From an uncultured Sphingomonas sp. (GTDB lineage: Bacteria > Pseudomonadota > Alphaproteobacteria > Sphingomonadales > Sphingomonadaceae): a DNA stretch of 64,000 bases. The stretch's first letter is position 1, and each line of letters begins with the position of its first letter. Under the pieces are notes generated by a model. It did not search any database, was not told the origin of the DNA, and saw only the letters and a program-made list of their open reading frames with translations. The position numbers were made by a program, and so were the translations under genes. The stretch lies in contig CAJYKB010000083.1 of NCBI GenBank assembly GCA_913774925.1, forward strand, positions 1-64,000, in the 5' to 3' direction. Below, one piece after another: positions 4,918-8,091 of this stretch.

Positions 4918-4986
4918 TCGCCTGAGGCAACCATTCGTCGCTCCATCCGCTTGATCGCGCACGATCATCCGCGAAGGAGCGACGAC

Positions 4987-5193
4987 ATGGCGAGCAATCT
5001 GAAGAAGGGCGACGAGGTCACGTGGAAGTCGCATGGCGGCACCGCGCACGGGACCGTCGAGAAGAAGCTGACCAGCGACACCACCATCAAGGGGCACAAG
5101 GTTCGTGCGTCGAGCGACGATCCGCAGTATCTGGTAGAGAGTGACAACGGCGGAAAGGCAGCGCACAAGCGCGAAGCGCTCAAGAAAGCGTGA
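4987..5193 (+). CDS. DUF2945 / Hva1_TUDOR-type small protein
   Basis: MASNLKKGDEVTWKSHGGTAHGTVEKKLTSDTTIKGHKVRASSDDPQYLVES; RBS-like GAAGGAG upstream. Confidence 0.85.
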   Translation: MASNLKKGDEVTWKSHGGTAHGTVEKKLTSDTTIKGHKVRASSDDPQYLVESDNGGKAAHKREALKKA

Positions 5194-5240
5194 TTCCGCG
5201 AGGAGCCGGCCCGTCGGTCGGCGCAACAGGAAGGAATGCA

Positions 5241-5555
5241 ATGGCTACCAAGACCAAGGCCGACGCGGCTGCCCCCAAGAAGGCGAAGGCCGATGCGGCC
5301 GCTGCGCCCAAGACGGGCGGCATCCACGCCCCCGTGCAGCCCTCGGCCGAACTGGGTGCAGTCGTCGGCAACGAGAAGCTGCCGCGCAGCCAGGTCATCA
5401 GCAAGGTGTGGGAATATATCAAGTCCAACAACCTGCAGAACCCTGAGAACAAGCGCGAGATCCTCGCCGACGACAAGCTGAAGAAGGTCTTCGGCAAGGA
5501 CAAGGTGACGATGTTCGAGATGAACAAGTACATCTCGCAGCACGTCAAGGCCTGA
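5241..5555 (+). CDS. SWIB/MDM2 domain-containing protein with Lys/Ala-rich N-terminal tail
   Basis: LGAVVGNEKLPRSQVISKVWEYIKSNNLQNPENKREILADDKLKKVFGKDKVTMFEMNKYISQHVK is a SWIB domain. Confidence 0.92.
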   Translation: MATKTKADAAAPKKAKADAAAAPKTGGIHAPVQPSAELGAVVGNEKLPRSQVISKVWEYIKSNNLQNPENKREILADDKLKKVFGKDKVTMFEMNKYISQHVKA

Positions 5556-5720: not shown

Positions 5721-5797
5721 GCCCCCGTAGCTCAGCAGGATAGAGCGACGGTTTCCTAAACCGCAGGCCGGAGGTTCGAATCCTCTCGGGGGCACCA
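5721..5797 (+). tRNA. tRNA-Arg (anticodon CCT)
   Basis: GCCCCCG acceptor pairs with CGGGGGC; TTCCTAA anticodon loop; GGTTCGAATCC T-arm; encoded CCA. Confidence 0.95.
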
Positions 5798-5827: not shown

Positions 5828-6376
5828 ATGCCGCCGCCGTTCGACGCCATTAAGCTCACACTGGCGGACGCAGGGCCCATCGCCGCGCTGTTTGCTCGCT
5901 GCAGCGACCATTTCCTCCTTCAGGATGGAGTCGAAGCCGATCCGTCCGACGCCGCGGCGCTATTTCGCGACGTGCCGACGGGCAAGTCCGCAACGGATCA
6001 GACGATCTTCGGCTGGCGCGACGACAGCGGCCTTTACGCCGTTGCCGCGATGTTGCGCGACTACCCCGAGGATGGCGTCTGGTATCTCGGGCTGTTGCTG
6101 CTCGATCCACGCCGACGCGGACAAGGCGTCGGTCGCGCGCTGCACGAGGCGCTCGTTCGCCATGTGATCGGGAAAGGCGCACGCGAGTTTCGGCTGGCGG
6201 TGATCGAGGCGAATGTTGGGGCGGAGCGATTCTGGCGGTCGCTCGGCTACCGCGAGCGTCGTCGGGTCGGCCTCGAAGCCTTCAAGGCACGGCAGCAACG
6301 CCGCGTAGAGATGACCCGCGACCTGCGACCGCCTCAGAACGCGACCTGCCCCACGACATTGCCCGCCGGCAGGTAA
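5828..6376 (+). CDS. GNAT family N-acetyltransferase
   Basis: WYLGLLLLDPRRRGQGVGRALHEAL ... NVGAERFWRSLGYRE acetyl-CoA binding pattern. Confidence 0.85.
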   Translation: MPPPFDAIKLTLADAGPIAALFARCSDHFLLQDGVEADPSDAAALFRDVPTGKSATDQTIFGWRDDSGLYAVAAMLRDYPEDGVWYLGLLLLDPRRRGQGVGRALHEALVRHVIGKGAREFRLAVIEANVGAERFWRSLGYRERRRVGLEAFKARQQRRVEMTRDLRPPQNATCPTTLPAGR

Positions 6377-6900
6377 CGGCACACCAGATAGTCGTCGCTG
6401 CGCCCGCTCGCGACCGCACAGCCGAACCGCTTCGTATCGCGCCAGACGATCTGGACGTAATGCGCCACCCCGCCCCAATGCCCGGTCCGGCTCGCCCCCG
6501 GCACCGGACGATTGACGAAGTCGCGCTGCTCGTCGACCCACAGCCGCACCATTTCATCATAGCGATAGGCGCCGCGCGTACCGGTGAAGAGGTTTTCGCC
6601 CTGGCGTCCCGGCCCCTGCGGCTGCTCGGCATGCGCGAAGCGGCCGGTCTGCGCCATCTCGCGGGCATAGGCCGCTGCCGACGCGGCAAGCGCGTCGTCC
6701 CAGACCAATGGCGGGACGCCGACATCGGCGCGGGCGCGATTGTGTCCGTCGAGCATCGCGCGGCGCAACAGCGCCTCGCCGCGCGCGGCGGGGGCGGCAC
6801 CCACGCGCGGCTCGGTCACCCGCGGCGGGCCGGCATCGGCGGAGCATCCGGCGAGCAGCAGCATCAGGGCGGCGACGGCGGCATGGCGTTTCGGGCGCAT
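6334..6900 (-). CDS. CAP/SCP-like domain lipoprotein
   Basis: MRPKRHAAVAALMLLLAGCSA lipobox; LDGHNRARADVGVPPLVWDDALAASAAAYA; GHWGGVAHYVQIVWRDTKRFGCA; YLVCRY. Confidence 0.88.
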   Translation of the reverse strand: MRPKRHAAVAALMLLLAGCSADAGPPRVTEPRVGAAPAARGEALLRRAMLDGHNRARADVGVPPLVWDDALAASAAAYAREMAQTGRFAHAEQPQGPGRQGENLFTGTRGAYRYDEMVRLWVDEQRDFVNRPVPGASRTGHWGGVAHYVQIVWRDTKRFGCAVASGRSDDYLVCRYLPAGNVVGQVAF

Positions 6901-6921
6901 CGCCGCCATATCGGCGCGGCC

Positions 6922-8091
6922 ATGCCCGCCGACAATATCCCCGCCGCCGCGAGCGACGAGCCGCTGGCGCTCTACGTCCACTGGCCGTTCTGCGTGTCGA
7001 AATGCCCCTATTGCGACTTCAACAGCCATGTGCGCGAGCAGGTCGATCAGCAGCGCTGGCGCGACGCGCTGCTGGCGGACCTGGCGCACGAAGTCGCGTT
7101 GCTGCCGGGGCGGCGGCTGGGCTCGATCTTCTTCGGCGGGGGCACCCCGTCGCTCATGCCGCCGGCTACCGTCGCCGCGATCATCCAGGCCGCCACCACC
7201 GCGTGGACGCCCGACGGCGATGTCGAGATCACGCTGGAGGCCAACCCCTCCTCGGTCGAGGCGGCGCGCTTCGCCGACATCGCCGCCGCCGGGGTCAACC
7301 GCGCCTCGCTCGGGCTACAGGCGCTGGACGACATGGCGCTCGCCTTCCTGGGGCGGGCGCATGACGTGCGCGAGGGACTGGGCGCGCTGGATGTCGCGCA
7401 GGCGGCATTCTCGCGCGTCAGCGTCGACCTGATCTATGCGCGTCCGGACCAATCGCTGGCCGCGTGGGAGGCGGAGCTGACGCAGGCGCTCGCGTTCGGC
7501 ACCGAGCATCTGTCGCTCTATCAACTCACGATCGAGCCCGGTACGCGCTTCGCGACCGAGGCGGCGGCGGGGCGGCTGACCATCCCCGATGGCGATGCCG
7601 CCGCCGACCTGTTCGACCTGACCCGCGCGATGACCGCGGCGGCGGGGCGACCGGCATATGAGATTTCGAACCACGCGCGTCCGGGGGCGGAGAGCCGGCA
7701 CAACCTCGCCTACTGGCGCTACCGCGACTAGGCCGGCATCGGCCCCGGCGCGCACGGCCGCCGCCACCGGCTGGCCAGCGTCCGCCGCCGCAAGCCCGAA
7801 AACTGGCTCGCGGCGGTGGACCGCAACACACACGGCATCGAGAGCGAGGAACCGCTCGCGCCCGAAACACGCGCGGCGGAGGCGCTGCTGATGGGGCTGC
7901 GGCTGGCGGAGGGGGTCGATCTGGCCCGCATCTCGTCAAGAACCGGGCTGCCGGTCGACACGCTGGTCGACGCGGAGGCGATCGCGGCGCTTCCGGGCCT
8001 GATCGCACGCGATGGCGATCGGCTGTCCGTCAGCGAAGCGGGGATGATCCTGCTCGACGCGATACTGCCGAGGGTCGTGAAGGTGGGGTGA
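6922..8091 (+). pseudogene. hemW: radical SAM HemW (coproporphyrinogen III oxidase-like), interrupted by an in-frame TAG at 7729-7731
   Basis: YVHWPFCVSKCPYCDFNSH (CX3CX2C), FFGGGTPS, LEANPSS; reading continues in the same frame after TAG: HNLAYWRYRD*AGIGPGAHGR... Confidence 0.85.

Follow-up and report, generated by a model that had tools for sequence, protein, structure and literature searches.

The locus described here lies in a Sphingomonas draft genome (G000; 125 contigs, 2.98 Mb, 81.4% complete, 2.89% contaminated) whose closest named relatives are also Sphingomonas. The window, i.e., the whole stretch of 64,000 nucleotides that was analysed, comprises bases 1-64000 of a contig (C83) of 68,447 bp. 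A hemW gene starts at an ATG at position 6922 of the forward strand and extends to 8091; an in-frame TAG at 7729-7731 interrupts it after 269 of its 389 residues. Past the TAG, the frame is open through to a TGA at 8089-8091. The initial annotation had described a hemW split by a single in-frame TAG, with HemW sequence continuing in the same frame to 8091 without a further lesion. Both observations were borne out, with radical-SAM sequence before the stop and a HemN_C domain after it. The features of the locus are the following:

6922-7728, forward strand: part of hemW before the stop, 269 codons; radical-SAM domain (PF04055, E 6e-20); TIGR00539 at 231.3 bits, above cut-off
7729-7731, forward strand: in-frame TAG at residue 270, Tyr in relatives (sequence, translation and an alignment of 51 homologues)
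7731-7744, forward strand: palindrome GGCCG-GCAT-CGGCC, the first base of which is the changed base (RNA folding and sequence)
7732-8091, forward strand: remainder of hemW in the same frame, with GxGPGAHG and HemN_C (PF06969 at full length, E 1e-13), ending in TGA
7778-7824, forward strand: stem-loop in coding sequence, 46 nt past the stop (RNA folding), unmatched in relatives

HemW is described as a protein that binds heme and hands it to bacterioferritin and NarI, without radical SAM enzyme activity (PMC11442138). The read-through protein scores 271.7 bits against TIGR00539 (cut-off 205.4), and the truncated form also passes. The cysteines of the CxxxCxxC motif (C24, C28 and C31, followed by D32-F33) are in the part before the stop, and the fourth Cys of HemN is absent, as described for the CX3CX2C motif of HemW (PMC11442138). 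The HNxxYW motif, which has a reported role in heme binding (PMC11834973), is found as HNLAYW at residues 260-265, also ahead of the TAG. HemN_C is in frame but beyond the TAG, and would belong to the same polypeptide only if the TAG were read through or erroneous. The full-length model shares its fold with HemN, the oxygen-independent coproporphyrinogen III oxidase (PDB 1olt; Foldseek E 3e-28, TM 0.80), but the HemN model gives this protein only 98 bits, below its cut-off of 325. With the HemW orthologues of Sphingomonas (TIGR00539; at most 84% protein identity) it shares CxxxCxxC, HNxxYW, GxGPGAHG, HemN_C and the presence of a single copy, and differs from them in the TAG at residue 270.

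The position of the TAG is highly conserved. In an alignment of 51 HemW sequences, taken from within the genus and from close to it and including this genome, the residue at the site is Tyr in 49 of the other 50 and His in the remaining one, in agreement with the earlier suggestion that Tyr is typical here; in a wider alphaproteobacterial alignment, Tyr occupies the site in at least 90%. The stop is private to this genome among the 51 homologues. A single base would explain the lesion, as had been proposed. The proposal that the earlier codon was TAC was not confirmed, as relatives encode this Tyr more often by TAT (39) than by TAC (10). We also considered a second lesion next to the stop, given that the second codon before it encodes Arg (RD*AG), where other groups have Gly. 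This was rejected, as Arg is normal there in the genus.

A survey of 101 genomes, all from the source genome's own genus, found hemW in 99, including all 88 with a completeness of 90% or more and a contamination not above 5%. The two genomes without a match have a completeness of 84-85% and are fragmented into 450-610 contigs. Loss of hemW is thus unexpected. The possibility that HemW naturally ends at the TAG, which the initial annotation had set as a check, is ruled out by the 99 genomes. The other flagged hemW stops that were inspected (G040, L009, L011) are natural gene ends. The only other hemW break in the genus is a frameshift in G087 (L174), near the same GxGPGAHG motif. We suspect that it is probably an indel error of assembly, because this single-contig genome scored only 88% complete.

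As judged from its sequence, hemW shows no decay on either side of the stop. After it, all 35 sites that do not vary among 29 genus relatives are unaltered; before it, one of 146 such sites is altered (E232D), and relatives span the same range. Mean identity is 0.83 before the stop and 0.69 after it, both comparable to the values of relatives, and there is no signal of relaxed selection past the stop. The change would therefore be either very recent or not real.

Other lesions are essentially lacking in the sequence covered. When the first 18.6 kb were compared with syntenic regions of seven relatives, no real gene except hemW had an internal stop; the other apparently broken genes were accounted for by gene junctions and overlapping shadow frames. 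Over 424 kb of the source genome, a scan based on codon usage gave 15 sites where a strongly coding frame runs past a stop, among which hemW is the only clear case of mid-gene nonsense. Five of the other 14 sites were tested against Pfam and have no domain split over the stop (four have differing families on the two sides, and in the fifth no family follows the stop); the remaining nine look like gene junctions by eye.

Both CxxxCxxC and HNxxYW would be retained in a product of 269 residues. In the predicted structure (mean pLDDT 91.6), a strand at 270-273 starts exactly at the lost residue, and this strand would be lost together with the invariant GPGAHGR and HemN_C. Deprived of its final core strand and of both GxGPGAHG and HemN_C, the truncated HemW would probably be inactive or unstable, and loss of HemW function is the likely result. 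If the stop is real, the insertion of heme into some hemoproteins would suffer, and the strain would be a naturally occurring case of incomplete HemW within a genus that otherwise nearly always has the gene intact. If it is not, a single base of a draft genome would make an annotator call a core heme-handling gene lost. The phenomenon is ordinary: this is an isolated nonsense change of one base, and nothing points to an evolved function or a new mechanism.

We consider the chance slightly better than even that the TAG is a one-base error in the consensus of a metagenome-type draft, or else a minor allele picked by the assembler. In this scenario, hemW would be ordinary and intact in the living population, and reads would be expected to show a Tyr codon at the site. 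We slightly favour this explanation over a fresh mutation because hemW is a core, single-copy and undecayed gene, and because the draft bin is mixed. Regarding the bin, prfA is found on two contigs (C2:5044-6102, L171, and C14:28399-29460, L172), with proteins that are 91% identical. Given that the regions around the two copies are collinear with a DNA identity of 82-87%, the sequences indicate that the bin also contains contigs of a second congeneric species (one contig pair, C2/C14). The collections searched gave no other strain of the species; the closest hemW there has a DNA identity of about 82%.

A lone mid-gene nonsense codon in 424 kb is as expected for a rare random error. Systematic Illumina miscalls are associated with GGC and inverted repeats (PMC3622629). 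Minus-strand reads approach 7731 through GC-rich inverted repeats and GGC, and the base called there is the same as the preceding base. This context fits an Illumina miscall, but the argument carries little weight, since such motifs abound at 68% GC. Against an error, hemW has no excess of odd substitutions, the one altered invariant site (E232D) being of a kind seen in many relatives. Similarly, the assembly is not visibly error-ridden, given that the 424 kb yielded no further lesion.

A real and very recent nonsense mutation, by which the strain would produce a HemW of 269 residues, is a serious possibility, although we hold it somewhat short of an even chance. The base at 7731 is unambiguous in the assembly, a fresh mutation predicts the absence of decay that is seen, and the lack of other lesions in 424 kb is contrary to what a generally poor consensus would give. 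However, hemW is near-universal and otherwise unbroken in the genus. No second hemW or HemN copy that could compensate, nor any other HemN_C protein, was detected in the draft (81% complete), and the loss would therefore be uncompensated.

The base that creates the stop at 7731 also completes the perfect palindrome GGCCG-GCAT-CGGCC (7731-7744), as in hairpin-templated mutation. Completion of the palindrome is weak evidence, fitting such a mutation or a hairpin-related miscall, and the odds of chance are high.

Sequencing error and recent pseudogene, two of the three options offered in the initial annotation, thus survive, whereas the third, readthrough, is strongly disfavoured. We regard programmed or suppressed UAG readthrough yielding full-length HemW as very improbable. 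The frame is open and conserved past the stop, and the locus shares with amber-recoding systems (pyrrolysine, suppressor tRNA and TAG-reassigned codes) an in-frame TAG within an otherwise conserved gene. Unlike in those systems, TAG is an ordinary stop in the source genome, where it terminates 52 of 334 strongly coding ORFs, including gltX (glutamyl-tRNA synthetase gene), and the release factor 1 (RF1) gene prfA is present; there is neither TAG avoidance nor loss of RF1. The amber suppressor tRNA that the initial annotation had suggested looking for did not turn up, as no CUA anticodon is present among the 32 tRNA genes found, which include tRNA-Tyr(GTA). The genome is 81% complete and its tRNA set incomplete, such that a suppressor could be absent from the draft. 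One partial tRNA match (L142) has a CGT-like loop by eye. A search for PylS gave only a match below the cut-off (E 9e-4), of a kind that most control genomes also give, and pyrrolysine was rejected. Given the ordinary use of TAG as a stop, the presence of RF1 and the lack of a CUA tRNA among the 32 found, recoding is very unlikely, and genome-wide TAG reassignment was likewise rejected. Furthermore, no relative has TAG at the site, and the relatives have Tyr codons instead.

The stem-loop 46 nt downstream of the TAG, which is strong and specific to this genome, could be taken to favour readthrough. It has a z of about -3.8 to -4.6 here, versus -1.9 to +1.6 in 29 relatives. However, the spacing is long for a readthrough signal, and 4 of 640 coding windows of the contig (~0.6%) are as low as z -3.77. 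The stem-loop is probably due to chance. The idea that UAG readthrough, aided by this genome-specific structure, determines the level of HemW in the lineage is slightly less probable still than readthrough in general. The least probable explanation of all is a split HemW, in which the truncated core would cooperate with a C-terminal domain started separately from an in-frame GTG at 7816 or ATG at 7891 (with GGCGGAGG some distance ahead of the ATG), because the arrangement is found in no relative and the GxGPGAHG motif would fall in neither piece.

Upstream of hemW, two neighbouring small genes on the forward strand (4918-5555) encode an Hva1_TUDOR domain and a SWIB/MDM2 domain, and a tRNA-Arg(CCT) is found just downstream of them, at 5721-5797. 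A gene for a CAP-domain lipoprotein-like protein (6337-6903, reverse strand) is divergent from hemW. The starts of these two genes are only ~20 bases apart, and thus they have a very short promoter region in common.
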